In this document: in pieces, positions 1 to 64,000 of the stretch | How the letters are laid out: each line of letters starts with the position of its first letter | How positions within the stretch are numbered: position 1 is the first letter of the stretch | Origin: Crossaster papposus | Taxonomy: Eukaryota; Echinodermata; Asteroidea; Velatida; Solasteridae | Direction: 5' to 3' | Length of the DNA: 64,000 nucleotides | Assembly (NCBI GenBank): GCA_037893245.1 | Contig: JBAIAA010000509.1 | Coordinates: forward strand, 1,116,001 to 1,180,000 | Notes under the pieces: model-generated | What the model was told of the DNA's origin: nothing | The model's input: only the letters and a program-made list of their open reading frames with translations | Database searches by the model: none | Position numbers and translations under genes: made by a program

Positions 1-226
1 CGTTGTGGTCGCAATAACCCAGGTTCGAATCCTGGTCATGGCATTCTCTTTTGATTCAGTATAATAGAACCTGTTTTAGGTATTTGATATTAATTTTCAG
101 CTACATTTCCTAACTGCTGTGATCGTCTCGTGGTTAGGACATTGCGTTGTGGTCGCAATAACCCAGGTTCGAATCCTGGTCATGGCATTCTCTTTTGATT
201 CAGTATAATAGAACCTGTTTTAGGTA

Positions 227-241
227 TTTGATATTAATTTT
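227..241 (+). promoter_or_regulatory. TATA-like upstream element (reference copy)
   Basis: The conserved AT-rich block TTTGATATTAATTT lies about 33 to 19 bp before gene position 1, where upstream TATA-like elements modulate Pol III transcription in several eukaryotes. It is kept in nearly all family A spacers, while the bases just before the gene vary. Shared descent of the repeat alone could explain this, so a promoter role is inference. Confidence 0.4.
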
Positions 242-259
242 CAGCTACATTTCCTAACT

Positions 260-331
260 GCTGTGATCGTCTAGTGGTTAGGACATTGCGTTGTGGTCGC
301 AATAACCCAGGTTCGAATCCTGGTCATGGCA
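260..331 (+). tRNA. tRNA-His(GTG), consensus copy used as reference
   Basis: This copy matches the array consensus. Acceptor stem positions 1-7 pair with 65-71 with two G-T wobbles (3-69, 4-68). The D stem is 10-13/22-25 with T13-G22 wobble. The anticodon stem is 27-31/39-43 and the loop TTGTGGT gives anticodon GTG at 293-295 with G37. The T stem is 48-52/60-64. The discriminator is A (331). The internal Pol III promoter is A box TCGTCTAGTGG (267-277) and B box GGTTCGAATCC (310-320). There is no intron or CCA. The base at -1 is T, so the G-1 needed by histidyl-tRNA synthetase must be added after transcription, as Thg1 does in eukaryotes. It should decode CAC and CAU. Sequence and fold closely resemble vertebrate tRNA-His. 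Confidence 0.95.
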
Positions 332-403
332 TTCTATTTTGATTCAGTATAATATAAACTGTTTTAGGTATTTGATATTAATTTCCAGTTCCTTTTTCTA
401 ACA
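332..403 (+). repeat. Spacer family A, representative
   Basis: A 72-bp spacer with a terminator T-run, a GATTCAGTATAATA block, a CTGTTTTAGG block, the TTTGATATTAATTT block and a variable pyrimidine-rich end before AACT. About 330 spacers are of this type. Sub-forms differ at the start (CTCTTTT, CTATTTT), in TAGAAACTG, TAGAACCTG or TATAAACTG, and in the last 20 bp (CAGCTACTTTTCC, CAGCTACATTTCC, CCAGCTCCTTATT, CCAGTTCCTTTTT, CTAGCTACTTTTCCTGTCT). The end form predicts the subtype of the next tRNA. Confidence 0.9.
337..340 (+). terminator. Pol III T-run terminator (reference copy)
   Basis: A run of four T lies five bases after the discriminator. Family A spacers begin TTCTCTTTT, TTCTATTTT or TTCTTTTTT and family B spacers begin TTCCATTTT, so almost every copy has at least T4 at the same place. 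T4 is the usual minimum for Pol III in animals. Confidence 0.7.
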
Positions 404-475
404 GCTGTGAGCGTCTAGTGGTTAGGACATTGCGTTGTGGTCGCAATAACCCAGGTTCGAATCCTGGTCATAGCG

Positions 476-21992: not shown

Positions 21993-23031
21993 TGTTTTAG
22001 GTATTTGATATTAATTTTCAGCTACTTTTCCTAAATGCTGTGAGCGTCTAGTGGTTAGCACATTGCGTTGTGGTCGCAATAACCCAGGTTCGAATTCTGG
22101 TCATGGCATTCTCTTTTGATTCAGTATAATATAAACTGTTTTAGGTATTTGATATTAATTTCCAGTTCCTTTTTTCTAACTGCTGTGAGCGTCTAGTGGT
22201 TAGGACATTGCGTAGTGGTTAGGACATTGCGTTGTGGTCGCAATAACCCAGGTTCGAATCCTGGTCATGGCATTCTCTTTTGATTCAGTATAATATAAAC
22301 TGTTTTAGGTATTTGATATTAATTTCCAGTTCCTTTTTTCTAACTGCTGTGAGCGTCTAGTGGTTAGGACATTGCGTTGTGGTCGCAATAACCCAGGTTC
22401 GAATCCTGGTCATGGCATTCTCTTTTGATTCAGTATAATAGAACCTGTTTTAGGTATTTGATATTAATTTTCAGCTACATTTCCTAACTGCTGTGATCGT
22501 CTAGTGGTTAGGACATTGCGTTGTGGTCGCAATAACCCAGGTTCGAATCCTGGTCATGGCATTCTCTTTTGATTGAGTATAATAGAAACTGTTTTAGGTA
22601 TTTGATATTAATTTCCAGCTCCTTATTCTAACTGCTGTGATCGTCTAGTGGTTAGGACATTGCGTTGTGGTCGCAATAACCCAGGTTCGAATCCTGGTCA
22701 TGGCATTCTATTTTGATTCAGTATAATATAAACTGTTTTAGGTATTTGATATTAATTTCCAGTTCCTTTTTCTAACTGCTGTGAGCGTCTAGTGGTTAGG
22801 ACATTGCGTTGTGGTCGCAATAACCCAGGTTCGAATCCTGGTCATAGCATTCCATTTTGATTTCTTATAATAAGAAGTGCTTTTCAAATTTGATAGTACA
22901 TGTAATTGTTTTTCAGCTTTTTCTCTCAACTGCTATGATCGTCTGGTGGTTAGGACATTGCGTTGTGGTCGCAATAACCCAGGTTCGAATCCTGGTCATG
23001 TCATTCTCTTTTGATTCAGTATAATAGAACC
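21993..23031 (+). repeat. 1039-bp tandem duplication, unit 1
   Basis: Seven genes from 22037 to 22932, including the 91-nt one, recur 1039 bp later. The left edge lies in the spacer before 22037. Confidence 0.85.
22182..22272 (+). pseudogene. tRNA-His with 19-nt internal duplication
   Basis: Gene positions 13-31 (the D-loop side through the 5' anticodon stem, TAGTGGTTAGG...TTGCG) are repeated once in tandem, giving a 91-nt gene. The insertion doubles the end of the A box and widens the A-B spacing by 19 bp. It could fold with a bulged arm but is probably not a working tRNA. It is also a G8 copy. Confidence 0.85.
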
Positions 23032-24070
23032 TGTTTTAGGTATTTGATATTAATTTTCAGCTACTTTTCCTAAATGCTGTGAGCGTCTAGTGGTTAGCAC
23101 ATTGCGTTGTGGTCGCAATAACCCAGGTTCGAATTCTGGTCATGGCATTCTCTTTTGATTCAGTATAATATAAACTGTTTTAGGTATTTGATATTAATTT
23201 CCAGTTCCTTTTTTCTAACTGCTGTGAGCGTCTAGTGGTTAGGACATTGCGTAGTGGTTAGGACATTGCGTTGTGGTCGCAATAACCCAGGTTCGAATCC
23301 TGGTCATGGCATTCTCTTTTGATTCAGTATAATATAAACTGTTTTAGGTATTTGATATTAATTTCCAGTTCCTTTTTTCTAACTGCTGTGAGCGTCTAGT
23401 GGTTAGGACATTGCGTTGTGGTCGCAATAACCCAGGTTCGAATCCTGGTCATGGCATTCTCTTTTGATTCAGTATAATAGAACCTGTTTTAGGTATTTGA
23501 TATTAATTTTTAGCTACATTTCCTAATTGCTGTGATCGTCTAGTGGTTAGGACATTGCGTTGTGGTCGCAATAACCCAGGTTCGAATCCTGGTCATGGCA
23601 TTCTCTTTTGATTGAGTATAATAGAAACTGTTTTAGGTATTTGATATTAATTTCCAGCTCCTTATTCTAACTGCTGTGATCGTCTAGTGGTTAGGACATT
23701 GCGTTGTGGTCGCAATAACCCAGGTTCGAATCCTGGTCATGGCATTCTATTTTGATTCAGTATAATATAAACTGTTTTAGGTATTTGATATTAATTTCCA
23801 GTTCCTTTTTCTAACTGCTGTGAGCGTCTAGTGGTTAGGACATTGCGTTGTGGTCGCAATAACCCAGGTTCGAATCCTGGTCATAGCATTCCATTTTGAT
23901 TTCTTATAATAAGAAGTGCTTTTCAAATTTGATAGTACATGTAATTGTTTTTCAGCTTTTTCTCTCAACTGCTATGATCGTCTGGTGGTTAGGACATTGC
24001 GTTGTGGTCGCAATAACCCAGGTTCGAATCCTGGTCATGTCATTCTCTTTTGATTCAGTATAATAGAACC
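23032..24070 (+). repeat. 1039-bp tandem duplication, unit 2
   Basis: Adjacent second unit. Small differences were seen at 23.51-23.53 kb (TTTTTAGC and CTAATTGCTG). Confidence 0.85.
23221..23311 (+). pseudogene. tRNA-His with 19-nt internal duplication (second copy)
   Basis: Same 19-nt tandem duplication as in 22182-22272, located 1039 bp downstream in the second unit of a tandem duplication. One event, later copied. Confidence 0.85.
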
Positions 24071-37026: not shown

Positions 37027-37046
37027 GTTTTTATTCTTCTTGTTCA

Positions 37047-37072
37047 ACTTTTTAACTTTAACTTTAACTTTT
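37047..37072 (+). repeat. Short TTTAAC repeat in LINE 3' UTR
   Basis: A few TTTAAC units in the 3' UTR between the stop codon and the tail. No function seen. Confidence 0.5.
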
Positions 37073-37131
37073 ATTGTCACTATGTACAGTGTGCTGAGAT
37101 AATTGTATGTGGTGCACTTTAAACAATAATT

Positions 37132-37150
37132 GATTAGATTAGATTAGATT
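37132..37150 (+). repeat. GATTA microsatellite tail of the LINE
   Basis: Three and a half GATTA/ATTAG units end the element and directly abut the GATTC of the array spacer. Short 3' tandem repeats are typical of CR1/L2-group LINEs and help place the 3' junction. Confidence 0.75.
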
Positions 37151-37155
37151 GATTC
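37151..37155 (+). other. Right GATTC target-site duplication
   Basis: Right-hand partner of 36606-36610; the array spacer resumes here as GATTCAGTATAATAG. Confidence 0.6.
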
Positions 37156-40372: not shown

Positions 40373-43300
40373 TTCTCTTTTGATTGAGTATAATAGAAAC
40401 TGTTTTAGGTATTTGATATTAATTTCCAGCTCCTTATTCTAACTGCTGTGGTCGTCTAGTGGTTAGGACATTGCGTTGTGGTCGCAATAACCCAGGTTCA
40501 AATCCTGGTCATGGCATTCTATTTTGATTCAGTATAATATAAACTGTTTTAGGTATTTGATATTAATTTCCAGTTCCTTTTTCTAACTGCTGTGAGCGTC
40601 TAGTGGTTAGGACATTGCGTTGTGGTCGCAATAACCCAGGTTCGAATCCTGGTCATGGCATTCTCTTTTGATTCAGTATAATAGAACCTGTTTTAGGTAT
40701 TTGATATTAATTTTCAGCTACATTTCCTAACTGCTGTGATCGTCTAGTGGTTAGGACATTGCGTTGTGGTCGCAATAACCCAGGTTCGAATCCTGGTCAT
40801 GGCATTCTCTTTTGATTGAGTATAATAGAAACTGTTTTAGGTATTTGATATTAATTTCCAGCTCCTTATTCTAACTGCTGTGGTCGTCTAGTGGTTAGGA
40901 CATTGCGTTGTGGTCGCAATAACCCAGGTTCGAATCCTGGTCATGGCATTCTATTTTGATTCAGTATAATATAAACTGTTTTAGGTATTTGATATTAATT
41001 TCCAGTTCCTTTTTCTAACTGCTGTGAGCGTCTAGTGGTTAGGACATTGCGTTGTGGTCGCAATAACCCAGGTTCGAATCCTGGTCATAGCATTCCATTT
41101 TGATTTCTTATAATAAAAAGTGCTTTTCAAATTTGATAGTACATGTAATTGTTTTTCAGCTTTTTCTCTCAACTGCTATGATCGTCTGGTGGTTAGGACA
41201 TTGCGTTGTGGTCGCAATAACCCAGGTTCGAATCCTGGTCATGTCATTCTCTTTTGATTCAGTATAATAGAACCTGTTTTAGGTATTTGATATTAATTTT
41301 CAGCTACATTTCCTAACTGCTGTGATCGTCTAGTGGTTAGGACATTGCGTTGTGGTCGCAATAACCCAGGTTCGAATCCTGGTCATGGCATTCCCTTTTG
41401 ATTGAGTACAATAGAAACTGTTTTAGGTATTTGATATTAATTTCCAGCTCCTTATTCTAACTGCTGTGATCGTCTAGTGGTTAGGACATTGCGTTGTGGT
41501 CGCAATAACCCAGGTTCGAATCCTGGTCATGGCATTCTCTTTTGATTCAGAATAATAGAAACTGTTTTAGGTATTTGATATTAATTTCCAGCTCCTTTTC
41601 CTAACTGTTGTGATCGTCTAGTGGTTAGGACATTGCGTTGTGGTCGCAATAACCCAGGTTCGAATCCTTGTCATGGCATTCTCTTTTGATTCAGTATAAT
41701 AGAACCTGTTTTAGGTATTTGATATTAATTTTCAGCCACATTTCCTAACTGCTGTGATCGTCTAGTGGTTAGGACATTGCGTTGTGGTCGCAATAACCCA
41801 TGTTCGAATCCTGGTCATGGCATTCTATTTTGATTCAGTATAATATAAACTGTTTTAGGTATTTGATATTAATTTCCAGTTACTTTTTCTAACTGCTGTG
41901 ATCGTCTAGTGGTTAGGACATTGCGTTGTGGTCGCAATAACCCAGGTTCGAATCCTGGTCATAGCATTCCATTTTGATTTCTTATAATAAAAAGTGCTTT
42001 TCAAATTTGATAGTATATGTAATTGTTTTTCAGCTTTTTCTCTCAACTGCTGTGATCGTCTAGTGGTTATGACATTGCGTTGTGGTCGCAATAACCCAGG
42101 TTCGAATCCTGGTCATAGCATTCCATTTTGAATTCTTATAATAAAAAGTGCTTTTCAAATTTGATAGTACATGTAATTGTTCTTCACCTTTTTCTCTCAA
42201 CTGCTGTGATCGTCTAGTGGTTAGGACATTGCGTTGTGGTCGCAATAACCCAGGTTCGAATCCTGGTTATAGCATTCCATTTTGATTTCTTATAATAAAA
42301 AGTGCTTTTCAAATTTGATTGTACATGTAATTGATTTTCAGCTTTTCCTCTCAATTGCTGTGATCGTCTAGTGGTTAGGACATTGCGTTGTGGTCGCAAT
42401 AACCCAGGTTCGAATCCTGGTCATGGCATTCTATTTTGATTCAGTATAATATAAACTGTTTTAGGTATTTGATATTAATTTTCATCTACTTTTCCTAACT
42501 GCTTTGATCGTCTAGTGGTTAGCACATTGCGTTGTGGTCGCAATAACCCAGGTTCGAATCCTGGTTATAGCATTCCATTTTGATTTCTTACAATAAAAAG
42601 TGCTTTTCAAATTTGATAGTACATGTAATTGATTTTCAGCATTTTTCTCAACTGCTGTGATCGTCTAGTGGTTAGGACATTGCGTTGTGGTCGCAAAAAC
42701 CCAGGTTCGAATCCTGGTCATGGCATTCTCTTTTGATTCAGTATAATAGAAACTGTTTTAGGTATTTGATATTAATTTTCAGCTACTTTTTCTAACTGCT
42801 GTGATCGTCTAGTGGTTAGGACATTGCGTTGTGGTCGCAATAACCCAGGTTCGAATCTTGGTCATGGCATTCTCTTTTGATTCAGTATAATAGAACCTGT
42901 TTTAGGTATTTGATATTAATTTTCAGCTTCTTTTTCTAACTGCTGTGATCGTCTAGTGGTTAGGACATTGCGTTGTGGTCGCAATAACCCAGGTTCGAAT
43001 CCTGGTCATGGCATTCTCTTTTGATTCAGTATAATAGAAACTGTTTTAGGTATTTGATATTAATTTTCAGCTACTTTTCCTAACTGCTGTGATCGTCTAG
43101 TGGTTAGCACATTGCGTTGTGGTCGCAATAACACAGGTTCGAGTCCTGGTCATGGCATTCTTTTTTGATTCAGTATAATAGAAACTCATTTAGGTATTTG
43201 ATATTAATTATCAGCTACATTTCCTAACTGCTGTGATCGTCTAGTGGTTAGGACATTGCGTTGTGGTCGCAATAACCCAGGTTCGAATCCTGGTCATGGC

Positions 43301-45591
43301 ATACTCTTTTGATTCAGTATAATAGAACCTGTTTTAGGTATTTGATATTAATTTTCAGCTATATTTCCTAACTGCTGTGATCGTCTAGTGGTTAGGACAT
43401 TGCGTTGTGGTCGCAATAACCCAGGTTCGAATCCTGGTCATAGCATTCCATTTTGATTTCTTATAATAAAATGTGCTTTTCAAATTTGATAGTACATGTA
43501 ATTGTTTTTCAGCATTTTTCTCAATTGCTGTGATCGTCTAGTGGTTAGGACATTGCGTTGTGGACGCAATAACCCAGGTTCGAATCCTGGTCATGGCATT
43601 CTATTTTGATTCAGTATAATATAAACTGTTTTAGGTATTTGATATTAATTTCCAGTTCCTTTTTCTAACTGCTGTGAGCGTCTAGTGGTTAGGACATTGC
43701 GTTGTGGTCGCAATAACCCAGGTTCGAATCCTGGTCATAGCATTCCATTTCTTATAATAAAAAGTGCTTTTCAAATTTGATAGTACATGTAATTGATTTT
43801 CAGCTTTTTCTCTCAATTGCTGTGATCGTCCAGTGGTTAGGACATTGCGTTGTGGTCGCAATAACCCAGGTTCGAATCCTGGTCATGGCATTCTCTTTTG
43901 ATTCAGTATAATAGAAACTGTTTTATGTATTTGATATTAATTTTCAGCTACTTTTCCTAACTGCTGTGATCGTCTAGTGGTTAGCACATTGCGTTGTGGT
44001 CGCAATAACCCAGGTTCGAATCCTGGTCATGGCATTCTCTTTTGATTCAGTATAATAGAACCTGTTTTAGGTATTTGATATTAATTTTCAGCTACATTTC
44101 CTAACTGCTGTGATCGTCTAGTGGTTAGGACATTGCGTTGTGGTCGCAATAACCCAGGTTCGAATCCTGGTTATAGCATTCCATTTTGATTTCTTATAAT
44201 AAAAAGTGCTTTTCAAATTTGATAGTACATGTAATTGTTTTTCAGCTTTTTCTCTAAACTGCTGTGATCGTCTAGTGGTTAGGACATTGCGTTGTGGTCG
44301 CAATAACCCAGGTTCGAATCCTGGTCATGGCATTCTCTTTTGATTCAGTATAATATAAACTGTTTTAGGTATTTGATATTAATTTCCAGTTCCTTTTTTC
44401 TAACTGCTGTGAGCGTCTAGTGGTTAGGACATTGCGTTGTGGTCGCAATAACCCAGGTTCGAATCCTGGTTATAGCATTCCATTTTGATTTCTTATAATA
44501 AAAAGTGCTTTTCAAATTTGATAGTACATGTAATTGATTTTCAGCTTTTTCTCTCAATTGCTGTGATCGTCTAGTGGTTAGGACATTGCGTTGTGGTCGC
44601 AATAACCCAGGTTCGAATCCTGGTCATGGCATTCTATTTTTATTCAGTATAATAGAAACTGTTTTAGGTATTTGATATTAATTTCCAGCTCCTTATTCTA
44701 ACTGCTGTGGTCGTCTAGTGGTTAGGACATTGCGTTGTGGTCGCAATAACCCAGGTTCGAATCCTGGTCATGGCATTCTATTTTGATTCAGTATAATAGA
44801 AACTGTTTTAGGTATTTGATATTAATTTCCAGTCCCTTTTTTCTAACTGCTGTGAGCGTCTAGTGGTTAGGACAATGCGTTGTGGTCGCAATAACCCAGG
44901 TTCGAATCTGTCATGGCATTCTCTTTTGATTCAGTATAATAGAACCTGTTTTAGGTATTTGATATTAATTTTCAGCTACATTTCCGAACTGCTGTGATCG
45001 TCTAGTGGTTAGGACATTGCGTTGTGGTCGCAATAACCCAGGTTCGAATCCTGGTCATGGCATTCTCTTTTGATTCAGAATAATAGAAACTGTTTTAGGT
45101 ATTTGATATTAATTTTCAGCTACTTTTCCTAACTGCTGTGATTGTCTAGTGGTTAGCACATTGCGTTGTGGTCGCAATAACCCAGGTTCGAATCCTGGTT
45201 ATAGCATTCCATTTTGATTTCTTATAATAAAAAGTGCTTTTCAAGTTTGATAGTACATGTAATTGATTTTCAGCTTTTTCTCTCAATTGCTGTGATCGTC
45301 TAGTGGTTAGGACATTGCGTTGTGGTCGCAATAACCCAGGTTCGAATCCTGGTCATGGCATTCTATTTTGATTCAGTATAATATAAACTGTTTTAGGTAT
45401 TTGACATTAATTTCCAGTTCCTTTTTCTAACTGCTGTGAGCGTCTAGTGGTTAGGACATTGCGTTGTGGTCGCAATAACCCAGGTTCGAATCCTGGTCAT
45501 AGCATTCAATTTTGATTTCTTATAATAAAATGTGCTTTTCAAATTTGATAGTACATGTAATTGTTTTTCAGCTTTTTCTCTCAACTGCTGT
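40306..45591 (+). repeat. 5286-bp tandem duplication, unit 1
   Basis: All 36 tRNA starts from 40445 to 45587 recur 5286 bp later. Shared private features include the spacer form GCCACATTT near 41.7 kb, the three-B-spacer run, A38 in 43527, the 6-bp spacer deletion after 43671, the T-stem deletion in 44849 and the TTTTTATTCAG spacer near 44.64 kb. Edges fall inside tRNA genes 40301 and 45587. No difference was noticed by eye, but identity was not measured. Confidence 0.88.
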
Positions 45592-45658
45592 GATCGTCTA
45601 GTGGTTAGGACATTGCGTTGTGGTCGCAATAACCCAGGTTCGAATCCTGGTCATGGCA
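40445..45658 (+). tRNA. tRNA-His array block 11: 36 copies
   Basis: Copies begin at 40445, 40589g, 40733, 40877, 41021g, 41175, 41319, 41463, 41607, 41751, 41895, 42049, 42203, 42357, 42501, 42654, 42798, 42942, 43086, 43230, 43374, 43527, 43671g, 43819, 43963, 44107, 44261, 44406g, 44560, 44704, 44849g, 44991, 45135, 45289, 45433g, 45587. Copies 41895, 42049, 42203 and 42357 are separated by three family B spacers in a row. Copy 43527 has A38 in the anticodon loop. Copy 44849 lacks two T-stem bases. Confidence 0.93.
44849..44918 (+). pseudogene. tRNA-His with 2-nt T-stem deletion
   Basis: The 3' T-stem strand reads AATCTGTCATGGC, two bases short, giving 70 nt and a four- to five-pair T stem only with mismatches. 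G8 and A27 are also present. The B box is nearly intact, so transcription is possible. Confidence 0.78.
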
Positions 45659-48600
45659 TTCTCTTTTGATTGAGTATAATAGAAACTGTTTTAGGTATTT
45701 GATATTAATTTCCAGCTCCTTATTCTAACTGCTGTGGTCGTCTAGTGGTTAGGACATTGCGTTGTGGTCGCAATAACCCAGGTTCAAATCCTGGTCATGG
45801 CATTCTATTTTGATTCAGTATAATATAAACTGTTTTAGGTATTTGATATTAATTTCCAGTTCCTTTTTCTAACTGCTGTGAGCGTCTAGTGGTTAGGACA
45901 TTGCGTTGTGGTCGCAATAACCCAGGTTCGAATCCTGGTCATGGCATTCTCTTTTGATTCAGTATAATAGAACCTGTTTTAGGTATTTGATATTAATTTT
46001 CAGCTACATTTCCTAACTGCTGTGATCGTCTAGTGGTTAGGACATTGCGTTGTGGTCGCAATAACCCAGGTTCGAATCCTGGTCATGGCATTCTCTTTTG
46101 ATTGAGTATAATAGAAACTGTTTTAGGTATTTGATATTAATTTCCAGCTCCTTATTCTAACTGCTGTGGTCGTCTAGTGGTTAGGACATTGCGTTGTGGT
46201 CGCAATAACCCAGGTTCGAATCCTGGTCATGGCATTCTATTTTGATTCAGTATAATATAAACTGTTTTAGGTATTTGATATTAATTTCCAGTTCCTTTTT
46301 CTAACTGCTGTGAGCGTCTAGTGGTTAGGACATTGCGTTGTGGTCGCAATAACCCAGGTTCGAATCCTGGTCATAGCATTCCATTTTGATTTCTTATAAT
46401 AAAAAGTGCTTTTCAAATTTGATAGTACATGTAATTGTTTTTCAGCTTTTTCTCTCAACTGCTATGATCGTCTGGTGGTTAGGACATTGCGTTGTGGTCG
46501 CAATAACCCAGGTTCGAATCCTGGTCATGTCATTCTCTTTTGATTCAGTATAATAGAACCTGTTTTAGGTATTTGATATTAATTTTCAGCTACATTTCCT
46601 AACTGCTGTGATCGTCTAGTGGTTAGGACATTGCGTTGTGGTCGCAATAACCCAGGTTCGAATCCTGGTCATGGCATTCCCTTTTGATTGAGTACAATAG
46701 AAACTGTTTTAGGTATTTGATATTAATTTCCAGCTCCTTATTCTAACTGCTGTGATCGTCTAGTGGTTAGGACATTGCGTTGTGGTCGCAATAACCCAGG
46801 TTCGAATCCTGGTCATGGCATTCTCTTTTGATTCAGAATAATAGAAACTGTTTTAGGTATTTGATATTAATTTCCAGCTCCTTTTCCTAACTGTTGTGAT
46901 CGTCTAGTGGTTAGGACATTGCGTTGTGGTCGCAATAACCCAGGTTCGAATCCTTGTCATGGCATTCTCTTTTGATTCAGTATAATAGAACCTGTTTTAG
47001 GTATTTGATATTAATTTTCAGCCACATTTCCTAACTGCTGTGATCGTCTAGTGGTTAGGACATTGCGTTGTGGTCGCAATAACCCATGTTCGAATCCTGG
47101 TCATGGCATTCTATTTTGATTCAGTATAATATAAACTGTTTTAGGTATTTGATATTAATTTCCAGTTACTTTTTCTAACTGCTGTGATCGTCTAGTGGTT
47201 AGGACATTGCGTTGTGGTCGCAATAACCCAGGTTCGAATCCTGGTCATAGCATTCCATTTTGATTTCTTATAATAAAAAGTGCTTTTCAAATTTGATAGT
47301 ATATGTAATTGTTTTTCAGCTTTTTCTCTCAACTGCTGTGATCGTCTAGTGGTTATGACATTGCGTTGTGGTCGCAATAACCCAGGTTCGAATCCTGGTC
47401 ATAGCATTCCATTTTGAATTCTTATAATAAAAAGTGCTTTTCAAATTTGATAGTACATGTAATTGTTCTTCACCTTTTTCTCTCAACTGCTGTGATCGTC
47501 TAGTGGTTAGGACATTGCGTTGTGGTCGCAATAACCCAGGTTCGAATCCTGGTTATAGCATTCCATTTTGATTTCTTATAATAAAAAGTGCTTTTCAAAT
47601 TTGATTGTACATGTAATTGATTTTCAGCTTTTCCTCTCAATTGCTGTGATCGTCTAGTGGTTAGGACATTGCGTTGTGGTCGCAATAACCCAGGTTCGAA
47701 TCCTGGTCATGGCATTCTATTTTGATTCAGTATAATATAAACTGTTTTAGGTATTTGATATTAATTTTCATCTACTTTTCCTAACTGCTTTGATCGTCTA
47801 GTGGTTAGCACATTGCGTTGTGGTCGCAATAACCCAGGTTCGAATCCTGGTTATAGCATTCCATTTTGATTTCTTACAATAAAAAGTGCTTTTCAAATTT
47901 GATAGTACATGTAATTGATTTTCAGCATTTTTCTCAACTGCTGTGATCGTCTAGTGGTTAGGACATTGCGTTGTGGTCGCAAAAACCCAGGTTCGAATCC
48001 TGGTCATGGCATTCTCTTTTGATTCAGTATAATAGAAACTGTTTTAGGTATTTGATATTAATTTTCAGCTACTTTTTCTAACTGCTGTGATCGTCTAGTG
48101 GTTAGGACATTGCGTTGTGGTCGCAATAACCCAGGTTCGAATCTTGGTCATGGCATTCTCTTTTGATTCAGTATAATAGAACCTGTTTTAGGTATTTGAT
48201 ATTAATTTTCAGCTTCTTTTTCTAACTGCTGTGATCGTCTAGTGGTTAGGACATTGCGTTGTGGTCGCAATAACCCAGGTTCGAATCCTGGTCATGGCAT
48301 TCTCTTTTGATTCAGTATAATAGAAACTGTTTTAGGTATTTGATATTAATTTTCAGCTACTTTTCCTAACTGCTGTGATCGTCTAGTGGTTAGCACATTG
48401 CGTTGTGGTCGCAATAACACAGGTTCGAGTCCTGGTCATGGCATTCTTTTTTGATTCAGTATAATAGAAACTCATTTAGGTATTTGATATTAATTATCAG
48501 CTACATTTCCTAACTGCTGTGATCGTCTAGTGGTTAGGACATTGCGTTGTGGTCGCAATAACCCAGGTTCGAATCCTGGTCATGGCATACTCTTTTGATT

Positions 48601-50877
48601 CAGTATAATAGAACCTGTTTTAGGTATTTGATATTAATTTTCAGCTATATTTCCTAACTGCTGTGATCGTCTAGTGGTTAGGACATTGCGTTGTGGTCGC
48701 AATAACCCAGGTTCGAATCCTGGTCATAGCATTCCATTTTGATTTCTTATAATAAAATGTGCTTTTCAAATTTGATAGTACATGTAATTGTTTTTCAGCA
48801 TTTTTCTCAATTGCTGTGATCGTCTAGTGGTTAGGACATTGCGTTGTGGACGCAATAACCCAGGTTCGAATCCTGGTCATGGCATTCTATTTTGATTCAG
48901 TATAATATAAACTGTTTTAGGTATTTGATATTAATTTCCAGTTCCTTTTTCTAACTGCTGTGAGCGTCTAGTGGTTAGGACATTGCGTTGTGGTCGCAAT
49001 AACCCAGGTTCGAATCCTGGTCATAGCATTCCATTTCTTATAATAAAAAGTGCTTTTCAAATTTGATAGTACATGTAATTGATTTTCAGCTTTTTCTCTC
49101 AATTGCTGTGATCGTCCAGTGGTTAGGACATTGCGTTGTGGTCGCAATAACCCAGGTTCGAATCCTGGTCATGGCATTCTCTTTTGATTCAGTATAATAG
49201 AAACTGTTTTATGTATTTGATATTAATTTTCAGCTACTTTTCCTAACTGCTGTGATCGTCTAGTGGTTAGCACATTGCGTTGTGGTCGCAATAACCCAGG
49301 TTCGAATCCTGGTCATGGCATTCTCTTTTGATTCAGTATAATAGAACCTGTTTTAGGTATTTGATATTAATTTTCAGCTACATTTCCTAACTGCTGTGAT
49401 CGTCTAGTGGTTAGGACATTGCGTTGTGGTCGCAATAACCCAGGTTCGAATCCTGGTTATAGCATTCCATTTTGATTTCTTATAATAAAAAGTGCTTTTC
49501 AAATTTGATAGTACATGTAATTGTTTTTCAGCTTTTTCTCTAAACTGCTGTGATCGTCTAGTGGTTAGGACATTGCGTTGTGGTCGCAATAACCCAGGTT
49601 CGAATCCTGGTCATGGCATTCTCTTTTGATTCAGTATAATATAAACTGTTTTAGGTATTTGATATTAATTTCCAGTTCCTTTTTTCTAACTGCTGTGAGC
49701 GTCTAGTGGTTAGGACATTGCGTTGTGGTCGCAATAACCCAGGTTCGAATCCTGGTTATAGCATTCCATTTTGATTTCTTATAATAAAAAGTGCTTTTCA
49801 AATTTGATAGTACATGTAATTGATTTTCAGCTTTTTCTCTCAATTGCTGTGATCGTCTAGTGGTTAGGACATTGCGTTGTGGTCGCAATAACCCAGGTTC
49901 GAATCCTGGTCATGGCATTCTATTTTTATTCAGTATAATAGAAACTGTTTTAGGTATTTGATATTAATTTCCAGCTCCTTATTCTAACTGCTGTGGTCGT
50001 CTAGTGGTTAGGACATTGCGTTGTGGTCGCAATAACCCAGGTTCGAATCCTGGTCATGGCATTCTATTTTGATTCAGTATAATAGAAACTGTTTTAGGTA
50101 TTTGATATTAATTTCCAGTCCCTTTTTTCTAACTGCTGTGAGCGTCTAGTGGTTAGGACAATGCGTTGTGGTCGCAATAACCCAGGTTCGAATCTGTCAT
50201 GGCATTCTCTTTTGATTCAGTATAATAGAACCTGTTTTAGGTATTTGATATTAATTTTCAGCTACATTTCCGAACTGCTGTGATCGTCTAGTGGTTAGGA
50301 CATTGCGTTGTGGTCGCAATAACCCAGGTTCGAATCCTGGTCATGGCATTCTCTTTTGATTCAGAATAATAGAAACTGTTTTAGGTATTTGATATTAATT
50401 TTCAGCTACTTTTCCTAACTGCTGTGATTGTCTAGTGGTTAGCACATTGCGTTGTGGTCGCAATAACCCAGGTTCGAATCCTGGTTATAGCATTCCATTT
50501 TGATTTCTTATAATAAAAAGTGCTTTTCAAGTTTGATAGTACATGTAATTGATTTTCAGCTTTTTCTCTCAATTGCTGTGATCGTCTAGTGGTTAGGACA
50601 TTGCGTTGTGGTCGCAATAACCCAGGTTCGAATCCTGGTCATGGCATTCTATTTTGATTCAGTATAATATAAACTGTTTTAGGTATTTGACATTAATTTC
50701 CAGTTCCTTTTTCTAACTGCTGTGAGCGTCTAGTGGTTAGGACATTGCGTTGTGGTCGCAATAACCCAGGTTCGAATCCTGGTCATAGCATTCAATTTTG
50801 ATTTCTTATAATAAAATGTGCTTTTCAAATTTGATAGTACATGTAATTGTTTTTCAGCTTTTTCTCTCAACTGCTGT
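45592..50877 (+). repeat. 5286-bp tandem duplication, unit 2
   Basis: Directly adjacent second unit. It ends inside gene 50873, where T38 of the expected sequence gives way to A38 and the following spacer is family A instead of the unit's own start. Confidence 0.88.
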
Positions 50878-50944
50878 GATCGTCTAGTGGTTAGGACATT
50901 GCGTTGTGGACGCAATAACCCAGGTTCGAATCCTGGTCATGGCA
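45731..50944 (+). tRNA. tRNA-His array block 12: 36 copies, duplicate of block 11
   Basis: Copies begin at 45731, 45875g, 46019, 46163, 46307g, 46461, 46605, 46749, 46893, 47037, 47181, 47335, 47489, 47643, 47787, 47940, 48084, 48228, 48372, 48516, 48660, 48813, 48957g, 49105, 49249, 49393, 49547, 49692g, 49846, 49990, 50135g, 50277, 50421, 50575, 50719g, 50873. Every start is the block 11 start plus 5286. Private mutations checked by eye are all shared. Copy 50873 has A38, where its block 11 partner 45587 has T38, because the duplication ends inside this gene. Confidence 0.93.
50135..50204 (+). pseudogene. tRNA-His with 2-nt T-stem deletion (duplicate)
   Basis: Copy of 44849-44918 at the 5286-bp offset, with the same G8 and A27. 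Confidence 0.78.
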
Positions 50945-51160
50945 TTCTATTTTGATTCAGTATAATATAAACTGTTTTAGGTATTTGATATTAATTTTCA
51001 GCTACTTTTCCTGTCTGCCTTGATCATCTAGTGGTTAGGACATTGCGTTGTGGTCGCAAAAACCCAGGTTCGAATCCTGGTCATGGCATTCTCTTTTGAT
51101 TCAGTATAATAGAACCTGTTTTAGGTATTTGATATTAATTTTCAGCTACATTTCCGAACT

Positions 51161-51232
51161 GCTGTGATCGTCTAGTGGTTAGGACATTGCGTTTTGGTCG
51201 CAATAACCCAGGTTCGAATCCTGGTCATGGCA
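51161..51232 (+). tRNA. tRNA-His backbone with Gln anticodon TTG
   Basis: Anticodon 51194-51196 reads TTG (G34 to T), which would read Gln CAA and by wobble CAG. The stems and B box are otherwise consensus, making it the best preserved of the anticodon variants. Confidence 0.82.
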
Positions 51233-53211
51233 TTCTATTTTGATTCAGTATAATATAAACTGTTTTAGGTATTTGATATTAATTTCCAGTTCCTTTTTCT
51301 AACTGCTGTGATCGTCTAGTGGTTAGGACATTGCGTTGTGGTCGCAATAACCCAGGTTCGAATCCTGGTCATGGCATTCTCTTTTGATTCAGTATAATAG
51401 AAACTGTTTTAGGTATTTGATATTAATTTTCAGCTACTTTTCCTAACTGCTGTGATCGTCTAGTGGTTAGCACATTGCGTTGTGGTCGCAATAACACAGG
51501 TTCGAGTCCTGGTCATGGCATTCTTTTTTGATTCAGTATAATAGAAACTCATTTAGGTATTTGATATTAATTATCAGCTACATTTCCTAACTGCTGTGAT
51601 CGTCTAGTGGTTAGGACATTGCGTTGTGGTCGCAATAACCCAGGTTCGAATCCTGGTCATGGCATACTCTTTTGATTCAGTATAATAGAACCTGTTTTAG
51701 GTATTTGATATTAATTTTCAGCTATATTTCCTAACTGCTGTGATCGTCTAGTGGTTAGGACATTGCGTTGTGGTCGCAATAACCCAGGTTCGAATCCTGG
51801 TCATAGCATTCCATTTTGATTTCTTATAATAAAATGTGCTTTTCAAATTTGATAGTACATGTAATTGTTTTTCAGCATTTTTCTCAATTGCTGTGATCGT
51901 CTAGTGGTTAGGACATTGCGTTGTGGACGCAATAACCCAGGTTCGAATCCTGGTCATGGCATTCTATTTTGATTCAGTATAATATAAACTGTTTTAGGTA
52001 TTTGATATTAATTTCCAGTTCCTTTTTCTAACTGCTGTGAGCGTCTAGTGGTTAGGACATTGCGTTGTGGTCGCAATAACCCAGGTTCGAATCCTGGTCA
52101 TAGCATTCCATTTCTTATAATAAAAAGTGCTTTTCAAATTTGATAGTACATGTAATTGATTTTCAGCTTTTTCTCTCAATTGCTGTGATCGTCCAGTGGT
52201 TAGGACATTGCGTTGTGGTCGCAATAACCCAGGTTCGAATCCTGGTCATGGCATTCTCTTTTGATTCAGTATAATAGAAACTGTTTTATGTATTTGATAT
52301 TAATTTTCAGCTACTTTTCCTAACTGCTGTGATCGTCTAGTGGTTAGCACATTGCGTTGTGGTCGCAATAACCCAGGTTCGAATCCTGGTCATGGCATTC
52401 TCTTTTGATTCAGTATAATAGAACCTGTTTTAGGTATTTGATATTAATTTTCAGCTACATTTCCTAACTGCTGTGATCGTCTAGTGGTTAGGACATTGCG
52501 TTGTGGTCGCAATAACCCAGGTTCGAATCCTGGTTATAGCATTCCATTTTGATTTCTTATAATAAAAAGTGCTTTTCAAATTTGATAGTACATGTAATTG
52601 TTTTTCAGCTTTTTCTCTAAACTGCTGTGATCGTCTAGTGGTTAGGACATTGCGTTGTGGTCGCAATAACCCAGGTTCGAATCCTGGTCATGGCATTCTC
52701 TTTTGATTCAGTATAATATAAACTGTTTTAGGTATTTGATATTAATTTCCAGTTCCTTTTTTCTAACTGCTGTGAGCGTCTAGTGGTTAGGACATTGCGT
52801 TGTGGTCGCAATAACCCAGGTTCGAATCCTGGTTATAGCATTCCATTTTGATTTCTTATAATAAAAAGTGCTTTTCAAATTTGATAGTACATGTAATTGA
52901 TTTTCAGCTTTTTCTCTCAATTGCTGTGATCGTCTAGTGGTTAGGACATTGCGTTGTGGTCGCAATAACCCAGGTTCGAATCCTGGTCATGGCATTCTAT
53001 TTTTATTCAGTATAATAGAAACTGTTTTAGGTATTTGATATTAATTTCCAGCTCCTTATTCTAACTGCTGTGGTCGTCTAGTGGTTAGGACATTGCGTTG
53101 TGGTCGCAATAACCCAGGTTCGAATCCTGGTCATGGCATTCTATTTTGATTCAGTATAATAGAAACTGTTTTAGGTATTTGATATTAATTTCCAGTCCCT
53201 TTTTTCTAACT

Positions 53212-53281
53212 GCTGTGAGCGTCTAGTGGTTAGGACAATGCGTTGTGGTCGCAATAACCCAGGTTCGAATCTGTCATGGCA
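53212..53281 (+). pseudogene. tRNA-His with 2-nt T-stem deletion (duplicate)
   Basis: Copy of 50135-50204 at the 3077-bp offset, with the same G8 and A27. Confidence 0.78.
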
Positions 53282-54237
53282 TTCTCTTTTGATTCAGTAT
53301 AATAGAACCTGTTTTAGGTATTTGATATTAATTTTCAGCTACATTTCCGAACTGCTGTGATCGTCTAGTGGTTAGGACATTGCGTTGTGGTCGCAATAAC
53401 CCAGGTTCGAATCCTGGTCATGGCATTCTCTTTTGATTCAGAATAATAGAAACTGTTTTAGGTATTTGATATTAATTTTCAGCTACTTTTCCTAACTGCT
53501 GTGATTGTCTAGTGGTTAGCACATTGCGTTGTGGTCGCAATAACCCAGGTTCGAATCCTGGTTATAGCATTCCATTTTGATTTCTTATAATAAAAAGTGC
53601 TTTTCAAGTTTGATAGTACATGTAATTGATTTTCAGCTTTTTCTCTCAATTGCTGTGATCGTCTAGTGGTTAGGACATTGCGTTGTGGTCGCAATAACCC
53701 AGGTTCGAATCCTGGTCATGGCATTCTATTTTGATTCAGTATAATATAAACTGTTTTAGGTATTTGACATTAATTTCCAGTTCCTTTTTCTAACTGCTGT
53801 GAGCGTCTAGTGGTTAGGACATTGCGTTGTGGTCGCAATAACCCAGGTTCGAATCCTGGTCATAGCATTCAATTTTGATTTCTTATAATAAAATGTGCTT
53901 TTCAAATTTGATAGTACATGTAATTGTTTTTCAGCTTTTTCTCTCAACTGCTGTGATCGTCTAGTGGTTAGGACATTGCGTTGTGGACGCAATAACCCAG
54001 GTTCGAATCCTGGTCATGGCATTCTATTTTGATTCAGTATAATATAAACTGTTTTAGGTATTTGATATTAATTTTCAGCTACTTTTCCTGTCTGCCTTGA
54101 TCATCTAGTGGTTAGGACATTGCGTTGTGGTCGCAAAAACCCAGGTTCGAATCCTGGTCATGGCATTCTCTTTTGATTCAGTATAATAGAACCTGTTTTA
54201 GGTATTTGATATTAATTTTCAGCTACATTTCCGAACT

Positions 54238-54309
54238 GCTGTGATCGTCTAGTGGTTAGGACATTGCGTTTTGGTCGCAATAACCCAGGTTCGAATCCTG
54301 GTCATGGCA
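54238..54309 (+). tRNA. tRNA-His backbone with Gln anticodon TTG (second copy)
   Basis: Anticodon 54271-54273 is TTG. The gene lies exactly 3077 bp after the 51161 copy and was made by the same segmental duplication. Confidence 0.82.
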
Positions 54310-56417
54310 TTCTATTTTGATTCAGTATAATATAAACTGTTTTAGGTATTTGATATTAATTTCCAGTTCCTTTTTCTAACTGCTGTGAGCGTCTAGTGGT
54401 TAGGACATTGCGTTGTGGTCGCAATAACCCAGGTTCGAATCCTGGTCATGGCATTCTCTTTTGATTGAGTATAATAGAAACTGTTTTAGTTATTTGATAT
54501 TAATTTCCAGCTCCTTATTCTAACTGCTGTGATAGTCTAGTGTTTAGGACATTGCGTTGTGGTCGCAATAACCCAGGTTCGAATCCTGGTCATGGCATTC
54601 TATTTTGATTCAGTATAATATAAACTGTTTTAGGTATTTGATATTAATTTCCAGTTCCTTTTTCTAACTGCTGTGAGCGTCTAGTGGTTAGGACAATGCG
54701 TTGTGGTCGCAATAACCCACGTTCGAATCCTGGTCATAGCATTCCATTTTGATTTCTTATAATAAAAAGTGCTTTTCAAATTTGATAGTACATGTAATTG
54801 TTTTTCAGCTTTTTCTCTCAACAGCTGTAATCGTCTAGTGGTTAGGACATTGCGTTGTGGTCGCAATAACCCAGTTTCGAATCCTGGTCATGGCATTCTC
54901 TTTTGATTGAGTATAATAGAACCTGTTTTAGGTATTTGATATTAATTTTCAGCTACATTTCCGAACTGCTGTGATCGTCTAGTGGTTAGGACATTGCGTT
55001 GTGGTCGCAATAACCCAGGTTCGAATACTGGTAATGGCATTCTATTTTGATTCAGTATAATATAAACTGTTTTAGGTATTTGATATTAATTTCCAGTTCC
55101 TTTTTCTAACTGCTGTGAGCGTCTAGTGGTTAGGACATTGCGTTGTGGTCGCAATAACCCAGGTTCGAATCCTGGTCATGGCATTCTCTTTTGATTCAGT
55201 ATAATAGAACCTGTTTTAGGTATTTGATATTAATTTTCAGCTACTTTTCCTGTCTGCTTTGATCATCTAGTGGTTAGGACATTGCGTTGTGGTCGCAATA
55301 ACCCAGGTTCGAATCCTGGTCATGGCAATCTCTTTTGATTGAGTATAATAGAAACTGTTTTAGGTATTTGATATTAATTTCCAGTTCCTTTTTCTAACTG
55401 CTGTGAGCGTCTAGTGGTTAGGACATTGCGTTGTGGTCGCAATAACCCAGGTTCGAATCCTGGTCATGGCATTCTATTTTGATTCAGTATAATATAAACT
55501 GTTTTAGGTATTTGATATTAATTTTCAGCTACTTTTCCTGTCTGCCTTGATCATCTAGTGGTTAGGACATTTCGTTGTGGTCGCAAAAACCCAGGTTCGA
55601 ATCCTGGTCATGGCATTCTCTTTTAATTCAGTATAATAGAACCTGTTTTAGGTATTTGATATTAATTTTCAGCTACATTTCCGAACTGCTGTGATCGTCT
55701 AGTGGTTAGGACATTGCGTTGTGGTCGCAATAACCGAGGTTCGAATCCTGGTCATGGCATTCTATTTTGATTCAGTATAATATAAACTGTTTTAGGTATT
55801 TGATATTAATTTCCAGTTCCTTTTTCTAACTGCTGTGAGCGTCTAGTGGTTAGGACATTGCGTTGTGGTCGCAATAACCCAGGTTCGAATCCTGGTCATG
55901 GCAATCTCTTTTGATTGAGTATAATAGAAACTGTTTTAGGTATTTGATATTAATTTCCAGTTCCTTTTTCTAACTGCTGTGAGCGTCTAGTGGTTAGGAC
56001 ATTGCGTTGTGGTCGCAATAACCCAGGTTCGAATCCTGGTCATGGCATTCTATTTTGATTCAGTATAATATAAACTGTTTTAGGTATTTGATATTAATTT
56101 CCAGTTCCTTTTTCTAACTGCTGTAAGCGTCTAGTGGTTAGGACATTGCGTTGTGGTCGCAATAACCCAGGTTCGAATCCTGGTCATAGCATTCCATTTT
56201 GATTTCTTATAATAAAAAGTGCTTTTCAAATTTGATAGTACATGTAATTGTTTTTCAGCTTTTTCTCTCAACAGCTGTGATCGTCTAGTGGTTAGGACAT
56301 TGCGTTGTGGTCGCAATAACCCAGGTTCGAATCCTGGTCATGGCATTCTCTTTTGATTGAGTATAATAGAAACTGTTTTAGGTATTTAATATTAATTTCC
56401 AGCTCCTTATTCTAACT

Positions 56418-59959: not shown

Positions 59960-60031
59960 GCTGTGATCGTCTAGTGGTTAGCACATTGCGTTGTAGTCGC
60001 AATAACCCAGGTTCGAATCCTGGTCATAGCA
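59960..60031 (+). tRNA. tRNA-His backbone with Tyr anticodon GTA
   Basis: Anticodon 59993-59995 reads GTA (G36 to A), matching Tyr codons UAC/UAU. The gene also has C23, giving a C12-C23 mismatch in the D stem, and a 3' end of the TCATAGC type followed by spacer B. Eukaryotic tRNA-Tyr genes normally carry an intron and a C1-G72 pair, which this lacks, so it is a mutated His gene. Confidence 0.82.
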
Positions 60032-63000
60032 TTCCATTTTGATTTCTTATAATAAAAAGTGCTTTTCAAATTTGATAGTACATGTAATTGATTTTCAGCT
60101 TTTTCTCTCAATTGCTGTGATCGTCTAGTGGTTAGGACATTGCGTTGTGGTCGCAATAACCCAGGTTCGAATCCTGGTCATGGCATTCTATTTTGATTCA
60201 GTATAATATAAACTGTTTTAGGTATTTGATATTAATTTCCAGTTCCTTTTTCTAACTGCTGTGAGCGTCTAGTGGTTAGGACATTGCGTTGTGGTCGCAA
60301 TAACCCAGGTTCGAATCCTGGTCATAGCATTCCATTTTGATTTCTTATAATAAAAAGTGCTTTTCAAATTTGATAGTACATGTAATTGATTTTCAGCTTT
60401 TTCTCTCAATTGCTGTGATCGTCTAGTGGTTAGGACATTGCGTTGTGGTCGCAATAACCCAGGTTCGAATCCTGGTCATGGCATTCTCTTTTGATTCAGA
60501 ATAATAGAAACTGTTTTAGGTATTTGATATTAATTTTCAGCTACTTTTCCTGTCTGCTTTGATCATCTAGTGGTTAGGACATTGCGTTGTGCTCGCAAAA
60601 ACCCAGGTTCGAATCCTGGTCATGGCATTCTCTTTTGATTCAGTATAATAGAACCTGTTTTAGGTATTTGATATTAATTTTCAGCTACATTTCCTAACTG
60701 CTGTGATCGTCTAGTGGTTAGGACATTGCGTTGTGGTCGCAATAACCCAGGTTCGAATCCTGGTCATGGCAATCTCTTTAGATTGAGTATAATAGAAACT
60801 GTTTTAGGTATTTGATATTAATTTCCAGTTCCTTTTTCTAACTGCTGTGAGCGTCTAGTGGTTAGGACATTGCGTTGTGGTCGCAATAACCCAGGTTCGA
60901 ATCCTGGTCATGGCATTCTCTTTTGATTGAGTATAATAGAAACTGTTTTAGGTATTTGATATTAATTTCCAGCTCGTTATTCTAACTGCTGTGATCGTCT
61001 AGTGTTTAGGACATTGCGTTGTGGTCGCAATAACCCAGGTTCGAATCCTGGTCATGGCATTCTATTTTGATTCAGTATAATATAAACTGTTTTAGGTATT
61101 TGATATTAATTTCCAGTTCCTTTTTCTAACTGCTGTGAGCGTCTAGTGGTTAGGACATTGCGTTGTGGTCGCAATAACCCAGGTTCGAATCCTGGTCATA
61201 GCATTCCATTTTGATTTCTTATAATAAAAAGTGCTTTTCAAATTTGATAGTACATGTAATTGTTTTTCAGCTTTTTCTCTCAACAGCTGTCATCGTCTAG
61301 TGGTTAGGACATTGCGTTGTGGTCGCAATAACCCAGGTTCGAATCCTGGTCATGGCATTCTCTTTTGATTGAGTATAATAGAAACTGTTTTAGGTATTTG
61401 ATATTAATTTCCAGCTCCTTATTCTAACTGCTGTGATCGTCTAGTGGTTAGGACATTGCGTTGTGGTCGCAATAACCCAGGTTCGAATCCTGGTCATGGC
61501 ATTCTCTTTTGATTCAGAATAATAGAAACTGTTTTAGGTATTTGATATTAATTTTCAGCTACTTTTCCTAACTGCTGTGATCGTCTAGTGGTTAGCACAT
61601 TGCGTTGTGGTCGCAATAACCCAGGTTCGAATCCTGGTTATAGCATTCCATTTTGATTTCTTATTATAAAAAGTGCTTTTCAAATTTGATAGTACATGTA
61701 ATTGATTTTCAGCTTTTTCTCTCAATTGCTGTGATCGTCTAGTGGTTAGGACATTGCGTTGTGGTCGCAATAACCCAGGTTCGAATCCTGGTCATGGCAT
61801 TCTATTTTGATTCAGTATAATATAAACTGTTTTAGGTATTTGATATTAATTTCCAGTTCCTTTTTCTAACTGCTGTGAGCGTCTAGTGGTTAGGACATTG
61901 CGTTGTGGTCGCAATAACCCAGGTTCGAATCCTGGTCATAGCATTCAATTTTGATTTCTTATAATAAAATGTGCTTTTCAAATTTGATAGTACATGTAAT
62001 TGTTTTTCTGCTTTTTCTCTCAACTGCTATGATCGTCTGGTGGTTAGGACATTGCGTTGTGGACGCAATAACCCAGGTTCGAATCCTGGTCATGGCATTC
62101 TATTTTGATTCAGTATAATATAAACTGTTTTAGGTATTTGATATTAATTTCCAGTTCCTTTTTCTAACTGGTGTGAGCGTCTAGTGGTTAGGACATTGCG
62201 ATGTGGTCGCAATAACCCAGGTTCGAATCCTGGTTATAGCATTCCATTTTGATTTCTTATAATAAAAAGTGATTTTCAAATTTGATAGTACATGTAATTG
62301 ATTTTCAGCTTTTTCTCTCAATTGCTGTGATCGTCTAGTGGTTAGGACATTGCGTTGTGGTCGCAATAACCCAGGTTCGAATCCTGGTCATGGCATTCTC
62401 TTTTGATTCAGTATAATATAAACTTTTTTAGGTATTTGATATTAATTTCTAGCTACTTTCCCTGTCTGCCTTGATCATCTAGTGGTTAGGACATTGCGTT
62501 GTGGTCGCAAAAACCCAGGTTCGAATCCTGGTCATGGCATTCTCTTTTGATTCAGTATAATAGAAACTGTTTTAGGTATTTGATATTAATTTTCAGCTAC
62601 TTTTCCTAACTGCTGTGATCGTCTAGTGGTTAGCACATTGCGTTGTGGTCGCAATAACCCAGGTTCGAATCCTGGTTATAGCATTCCATTTTGATTTCTT
62701 ATAATAAAAAGTGCTTTTCAAATTTGATAGTACATGTAATTGATTTTCAGCATATTCTCTCAACTGCTGTGATCGTCTAGTGGTTAGGACATTGCGTTGT
62801 GGTCGCAATAACCCAGGTTCGAATCCTGGTCATGGCATTCTTTTTTTGATTCAGTATAATATAAACTGTTTTAGGTATTTGATATTAATTTCCAGCTCCT
62901 TTTTCTAACTGCTGTGATCGTCTATTGGTTAGGACATTGCGTTGTGGTCGCAATAACCCAGGTTCGAATCCTGGTCATGGCATTCTCTTTTGATTCAGAA

Positions 63001-63702
63001 TAATAGAAACTGTTTTAGGTATTTGATATTAATTTTCAGCTACTTTTCCTGTCTGCCTTGATCATCTAGTGGTTAGGACATTGCGTTGTGGTCGCAAAAA
63101 CCCAGGTTCGAATCCTGGTCATGGCATTCTCTTTTGATTCAGTATAATAGAAACTGTTTTAGGTATTTGATATTAATTTTCAGCTACATTTCCTATCTGC
63201 TGTGATCGTCTAGTGGTTAGGACATTGCGTTGTGGTCGCAATAACCCAGGTTCGAATCCTGGTCATGGCATTCTCTTTTGATTGAGTATAATAGAAACTG
63301 TTTTAGGTATTTGATATTAATTTCCAGTTCCTTTTTCTAACTGATGTGAGCGTCTAGTGGTTAGGACATTGCGTTGTGGTCGCAATAACCCAGGTTCGAA
63401 TCCTGGTCATGGCATTCTCTTTTGATTGAGTATAATAGAAACTGTTTTAGGTATTTGATATTAATTTCCAGCTCCTTATTCTAACTGCTGTGATCGTCTA
63501 ATGTTTAGGACATTGCGTTGTGGTCGCAATAACCCAGGTTCGAATCCTGGTCGTGGCATTCTATTTTGATTCAGTATAATATAAACTGTTTTAGGTATTT
63601 GATATTAATTTCCAGTTCCTTTTTCTAACTGCTGTGAGCGTCTAGTGGTTAGGACATTGCGTTGTGGTCGCAATAACACAGGTTCGAATCCTGGTCATAG
63701 CA

Positions 63703-63774
63703 TTCCATTTTGATTTCTTATAATAGAAACTGTTTTAGGTATTTGATATTAATTTCCAGTTCCTTTTTCTAACT
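63703..63774 (+). repeat. Recombinant spacer B/A, different switch point
   Basis: Begins as family B through TTCTTATAATA and switches to family A at TAGAAACTG, so the exchange used the shared TATAATA block rather than TTTTGATT. An independent event. Confidence 0.8.
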
Positions 63775-64000
63775 GATGTGAGCGTCTAGTGGTTAGGACA
63801 TTGCGTTGTGGTCGCAATAACCCAGGTTCGAATCCTGGTCATGGCATTCTCTTTTGATTGAGTATAATAGAAACTGTTTTAGGTATTTGATATTAATTTC
63901 CAGCTCCTTATTCTAACTGCTGTGATCGTCTAGTGTTTAGGACATTGCGTTGTGGTCGCAATAACCCAGGTTCGAATCCTGGTCATGGCATTCTATTTTG

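Follow-up and report, generated by a model that had tools for sequence, protein, structure and literature searches.

A stretch of 64,000 nucleotides of Crossaster papposus DNA (here called the window; contig C509, positions 1,116,001 to 1,180,000, of an assembly of 1.02 Gb in 1,841 contigs) was filled by a tandem array of tRNA-His genes with a GTG anticodon. A search of the window with a single-sequence profile of the 72-nt consensus gave 436 matches, all on the plus strand, which became 434 gene starts (433 complete genes and one partial gene at positions 1 to 43) when two copies with a 19-bp internal duplication were each rejoined as one gene. The same count, likewise on one strand, had been given in the original prediction, which was made from the letters of the window. 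The predicted spacing of 144 to 154 bp described most of the array, in which start-to-start distances before merging were mostly 144 bp (270 times), 154 bp (88 times), or 145 bp (49 times), but distances of 133, 138, 142, and 164 bp were present as well, and a single distance of 689 bp contained an insertion. ARAGORN called 423 tRNAs in the window, 416 of them His(GTG) and 7 of them anticodon variants (3 Asp, 2 Gln, 1 Pro, and 1 Tyr), and called none on its minus strand. Infernal, applied to the first 6,000 bases of the window, scored 40 tRNAs above the gathering threshold. A chance origin of the tRNA calls was rejected, as ten first-order Markov versions of the window contained 0 tRNAs each. 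The features of the window, in window coordinates, were as follows.

1 to 64000, plus strand: segment of the tRNA-His(GTG) tandem array with 433 complete genes and 1 partial gene; the array continues past both ends (C509, 1,065,928 to 1,208,784)
260 to 403, plus strand: typical 144-bp unit of type A, with the gene at 260 to 331 followed by a spacer with a T4 run
22182 to 22272, plus strand: tRNA-His copy with the 19-bp internal duplication, a form that recurs at 23221
23221 to 23311, plus strand: second tRNA-His copy, carrying the identical 19-bp internal duplication
36611 to 37155 (approximate limits), unstranded: insertion of about 545 bp in a spacer, judged by eye to resemble the 3' fragment of a long interspersed nuclear element (LINE), with a GATTA-repeat tail
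38544 to 38615, plus strand: the sole C509 copy whose 5' half is canonical (GCCGTGATCGTCTAGTGGTTAG), with a noncanonical 3' end
40301 to 50872, plus strand: exact tandem duplication of a 36-unit block, with 40301 to 45586 repeated as 45587 to 50872
48228 to 54381, plus strand: exact tandem duplication of a 21-unit block, with 48228 to 51304 repeated from 51305

The full array was read on C509 between 1,062,001 and 1,220,000. It comprised 964 profile matches and 962 gene starts, all on the plus strand, spanned 142.9 kb (1,065,928 to 1,208,784), and was bounded on each side by nonarray sequence; it left the window at both ends, as had been anticipated. Three start-to-start gaps exceeded 200 bp (1,305, 415, and 689 bp). 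The LINE-like fragment was located about 14 bp past a tRNA gene, within the terminator region, and had no match in a Pfam search.

Unit structure was analyzed in the 954 units of 125 to 175 bp of the C509 array. Units lay head to tail with similar spacers, an arrangement of the kind seen in the tRNA arrays of Hydractinia and Entamoeba, and fell into length classes A (138 to 149 bp; n = 757), B (151 to 156 bp; n = 174), and C (at least 170 bp; n = 18), with 5 others. The copies were not uniform, and 496 distinct units and 273 distinct aligned gene sequences were found among them. The consensus genes of classes A and B differed at 1 of 72 positions, a G-to-A change at gene position 69 that turns a U-G pair into a U-A pair, whereas their consensus spacers were identical at 57 of 70 aligned positions (13 differed) and had indels in 14 further columns (Fisher P = 0.0005 for the contrast between gene and spacer). 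Internal A and B boxes and a downstream T run were present, with the commonest B box in 824 of the 954 units, the commonest A-box region in 585, and a T4 run downstream of the gene in 895. The GTG anticodon was retained in 930 units, and the anticodon columns read otherwise in 24. The array genes are predicted to form a tRNA-His cloverleaf with a GTG anticodon, though many single copies fail to do so: the predicted folds of both consensus forms were cloverleaves, and that of one common damaged variant was not. Among the 910 gap-free genes (the 44 gapped copies were excluded from this count), 523 had all 21 stem pairs, 240 had one mismatch, and 147 had more.

Mutations were found in gene and spacer alike, though gene variants rarely reached high frequency. 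Across all 954 units, per-site diversity was 0.044 for gene positions and 0.151 for spacer positions; in the 715 units of 143 to 146 bp, the values were 0.036 and 0.087, respectively. The numbers of distinct variants per site were alike (2.36 in stems, 1.97 in loops, and 1.89 in the spacer), yet variant frequency was 0.027 in stems, 0.019 in loops, and 0.010 at anticodon sites against 0.099 in the spacer. Variants below 1% outnumbered those at 5% or above by 118 to 9 among gene variants and by 71 to 35 among spacer variants (Fisher P = 5e-7, a comparison that omits the 1 to 5% class [31 gene and 30 spacer variants] and a value that is too small because spacer variants are linked in subfamilies). 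Weighted by copies, stem pairing was preserved in 443 of 1,085 cases. In our reading, single copies mutate freely, their numbers being so large, and filtering acts only on variants that become common. CpG decay was not supported as the source of the acceptor-stem changes, CpG transitions standing at 0.0155 and those at other C/G sites of the gene at 0.0137; the observed-to-expected CpG ratio was 0.78 for the array, compared with flank values of 0.86 and 1.08.

Exact block duplications of 61 (about 9 kb), 41, 36, 26, and 21 units were identified in the array. Simple repetition of adjacent units was rejected, since neighboring units differed as much as sampled random pairs did (0.103 versus 0.104), which instead points to duplication by blocks; block-wise unequal exchange would be the simplest mechanism. 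In its length, its block duplications, and its turnover, the array resembles satellite DNA.

A similar tRNA-His array, on the minus strand, was found on contig C7 from about 1,976.7 kb to position 2,130,581 and is known from five 2-kb samples and its left edge. The flanks of the C509 and C7 arrays were 93.5% identical over 1,077 bp upstream and 97.4% identical over 3,194 bp downstream, and this match suggests, most simply, that the two arrays are alleles. An exact 38-base core occurred 573 times in forward and 632 times in reverse orientation across the assembly, and the first 100 matches listed were all on C7. Smaller side blocks of the His array were present on C7 at about 1,900.4 to 1,903.2 kb and 1,945.7 to 1,953.1 kb, with other DNA between them and the main block; when a C509 counterpart of a side block was sought, no His gene was seen at 1,234 to 1,237 kb, the sole stretch inspected. 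If both haplotypes are generally assembled, as this one locus suggests, the haploid genome size would be about 0.5 Gb; the assembly of the sea star Asterias amurensis is 491.5 Mb (PMC10625585).

The original prediction had named an assembly artefact as its refutation. We consider such an artefact, with an inflated copy number or a misassembled array, highly improbable. A second, apparently allelic contig makes a wholesale artefact unlikely, since similar arrays are found on two contigs with flanks that match on both sides, and the 496 distinct units make much of the array distinguishable. The haplotypes also differ inside the array; the best C509 matches of four 2-kb samples of C7 were at 92 to 97%, although for one sample only half of the length was matched, and scores were nearly as high at the next-best C509 places. 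The concern is in this way largely answered by the second haplotype, but the exactly duplicated blocks of up to 61 units could still be assembly duplications.

The whole assembly was searched for canonical tRNA-His with three exact patterns. The canonical 5' half (GCCGTGATCGTNTAGTGGTTAG) had 2 exact matches in the genome, one in each array, the canonical 3' end had 7, all within the C509 array, and a pattern with another anticodon stem had 0. Canonical tRNA-His was thus not found outside the arrays by these patterns, which cover the canonical sequence only, not unusual or array-like His genes. On this result, nuclear tRNA-His is probably supplied by the array. We consider it likely, from the sequence at hand, that the locus is the nuclear tRNA-His gene locus, which on this haplotype has expanded to about 960 tandem copies of a single isotype and forms one of several isotype-specific arrays. 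The original prediction had offered two readings, an amplified tRNA-His supply and a tRNA-derived satellite with structural, insulator, or small-RNA roles. The former was the better supported, as canonical copies were not found elsewhere, the A and B genes are 1 position in 72 apart while their spacers differ clearly, and the T4 run is retained in 895 of the 954 units; the array also behaved as a satellite, with its block duplications and many damaged copies. An assignment to tRNA-derived short interspersed nuclear elements was rejected, as the units are head to tail and without an extra body and matches to the canonical patterns were confined to the arrays; dispersal of the core was judged among the first 100 of 1,205 exact matches listed, and dispersed copies of the array type may exist.

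As a working supply, the array could operate as follows. Each unit would act on its own as a gene for RNA polymerase III, with the A and B boxes inside the gene and a T run directly behind it as terminator. Intact copies would be numerous enough to furnish tRNA-His, assuming that they are transcribed and charged, and redundancy would allow damaged copies to persist. Copies would be gained and lost as blocks, each of a few to about 60 units, are exchanged unequally, and mutations would enter freely while gene-damaging variants would rarely spread, presumably through selection.

Several observations weigh against a working supply. A strict filter for intactness (all pairs, no gap, GTG, U8, B box, T4 run, and no internal T4) was passed by 364 of the 954 units and failed by 590 (493 passed when one mismatch was allowed). 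Position 8 of a tRNA is normally U, and 180 copies had G there. Damaged forms had spread in the array, with T at position 4 in 67 copies, A at position 10 in 53, and C at position 23 in 72. In the 162 units of 153 to 155 bp, diversity was 0.052 in the gene and 0.045 in the spacer, over shared columns only. Rare stem variants preserved pairing in 13 of 68 cases compared with 24 of 126 possible ones, which is the chance rate; single copies thus seem to be free of constraint. Of the 6 stem variants at 5% or above, 3 break a pair. Recombination between A and B units within the gene could partly produce the contrast between gene and spacer. To these points are added the restriction of the three His patterns to canonical sequence and the forward core matches, of which 560 of the 573 fall in the C509 stretch and 13 have no assigned place.

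The 590 failing units, the chance-rate breaking of pairs by rare stem variants, and the damaged forms at 53 to 72 copies would also suit a mostly inert satellite derived from tRNA-His, as would the satellite-like block duplications and a copy number of about 960, which seems far beyond ordinary need. Such a satellite might have arisen when a gene copy was amplified in tandem and multiplied further through unequal exchange, and working tRNA-His would then come from a few internal copies or from an undetected gene elsewhere. We regard this explanation as unlikely, though with some weight, given that the three patterns find no canonical gene elsewhere, that gene variants are far rarer in frequency than spacer variants though equally numerous, that terminators are retained in 895 of 954 units, and that arrays exist for other isotypes as well, which is more than one accident would account for.

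It is improbable that the array is kept for a role outside translation, as a chromatin boundary, in nuclear organization, in a centromere-linked structure, or as a source of small RNA. A unit near 147 bp and long arrays on one strand would suit such a role, and a human tandem tRNA repeat binds CTCF (PMC4041453). However, a matrix-binding idea for the Entamoeba arrays was doubted by the authors who reported on them (PMC2652664), and low variant frequency was seen in the gene parts rather than in the whole unit, as tRNA function predicts.

For other isotypes, exact core matches were counted over the whole assembly. Arrays of tRNA-Lys(TTT) genes were found in units of about 572 to 576 bp on C479 and the small contigs C1268, C1448, and C1705 and in units of mostly 770 bp, in both orientations, on C424; the tRNA-Lys core had 684 exact matches. 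The two tRNA-Lys(TTT) satellites were alike on both sides of the gene and different in the middle of the unit. The Gly(GCC) core had 164 exact matches (163 on one strand), and 99 of the 100 matches listed were on C656 between 598 and 812 kb, where a 1.6-kb sample showed 11 of 11 tRNA-Gly genes at 141-bp spacing. Initiator Met had 2,814 exact matches (2,722 on one strand), with 97 of the 100 matches listed on C146 in both orientations; a 2.2-kb sample of this array (C146, 4,434,001 to 4,436,200) contained 4 genes called by ARAGORN among copies that looked degenerate by eye. Asn had 168 exact matches (167 on one strand), the 100 matches listed being all on C175, and Trp had 884 (882 on one strand), the 100 matches listed all falling on C502 at distances close to multiples of 206 bp. 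The Asp probe had 0 exact matches in the assembly and was uninformative. Large arrays were accordingly found for six of the seven isotypes probed (His, Lys, Gly, initiator Met, Asn, and Trp, with Asp at 0 matches); Lys was not picked blind but came from a general tRNA search, which scored only 63 of 213,984 candidates.

These arrays raise the tentative possibility that nuclear tRNA genes of this animal are stored mainly as giant isotype-specific satellites, each isotype having one or a few arrays that number from hundreds to thousands of copies, and that ordinary dispersed genes are few. Dispersed tRNA genes do exist, counter to a strict rule of one isotype, one array: a tRNA-Cys on C556 stands alone outside arrays, tRNA-Thr(GGT)-like matches occur one or two per stretch on C410, C332, C103, C335, C725, and C1010 (perhaps as a dispersed tRNA-derived element), and two tRNA-Lys genes lie 6.6 kb apart on C55 (682,001 to 692,000), outside compact arrays, with a third match about 6 kb farther on. 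We rate the genome-wide proposal as less likely than not, and these lone Cys and Thr and widely spaced Lys genes lower its probability slightly.

Tandem tRNA arrays are already known, and what differs here is the copy number, the compact unit, and the echinoderm setting; the unusual feature is the isotype-by-isotype organization. In Hydractinia, tRNAs for every amino acid are reported to occur in tandem arrays, which were called unusual outside Entamoeba, and arrays were reported for Nematostella too (PMC11067881). The Hydractinia arrays contain tens or hundreds of copies with longer spacers (PMC11067881), whereas the Crossaster array, in an echinoderm, holds about 960 copies of one isotype with spacers of mostly 72 to 82 bp. 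In Entamoeba, nearly all tRNA genes lie in tandem arrays, at least one of which is named by a single type ([R-TCT]), and concerted evolution was proposed, but the 25 array units carry up to five tRNA genes each (PMC2652664), and short repeats of the Entamoeba kind were not seen in the Crossaster spacer consensus. The human tandem tRNA repeat at 1q23.3 likewise varies in copy number but has a 7.3-kb unit, 9 to 43 units per allele, and CTCF binding (PMC4041453). For A. amurensis, 14,926 tRNAs were predicted in the 491.5-Mb assembly (PMC10625585), so very high tRNA numbers in sea stars are already in print; the figure stands there as a count, and no description of arrays or isotype arrangement was found with it. 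In a survey of another echinoderm, Apostichopus japonicus, 1,032 tRNA genes were reported after repeats had been filtered out ahead of the search, and the words "tandem" and "cluster" are absent from its main text (PMC8580430); a prefilter of this type could remove arrays of the Crossaster kind. No description of isotype-specific tRNA arrays in echinoderms, sea stars included, was found among the entries listed from the open literature searched.

If the arrays are the working supply, an essential gene family of C. papposus would evolve in the manner of satellite DNA. This would raise the questions of how a sufficient number of good genes is retained in a pool of about 1,000 copies, many of them damaged, and how the use of damaged or anticodon-altered copies is avoided in cells (the anticodon columns read other than GTG in 24 of 954 units). 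If nuclear tRNA genes are mainly stored as isotype-specific satellites, unequal exchange within each array would determine the dosage and sequence of the tRNAs, and these would differ between the haplotypes of one individual. In such genomes, the principal tRNA loci may be overlooked by pipelines in which repeats are masked before tRNAs are sought.

Contig C8 (5.3 Mb) carried stop-free reading frames for haem-copper oxidases (one of 682 amino acids) and a cluster of Lys and Asn tRNAs. It is probably from a bacterium living with the animal rather than animal DNA, and the cluster was set aside as bacterial. The mitochondrial contig C1841 indicates an echinoderm, and a sea star is more likely than a brittle star. 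On this contig, COX1 was read with code 9, the echinoderm (and flatworm) code, and had AAA at Asn, AGA at Ser, and TGA at Trp positions judged to be conserved among animal COX1 sequences. The tRNA order before COX1 was -Leu, -Gly, -Tyr, Asp, -Met, Val, -Cys, -Trp, Ala, -Leu, -Asn, Gln, -Pro, presumably the inverse of the sea urchin cluster. A 4.6-kb inversion that includes part of the tRNA cluster distinguishes starfish from sea urchins, and mitochondrial gene order unites starfish with brittle stars (PMC3308324).

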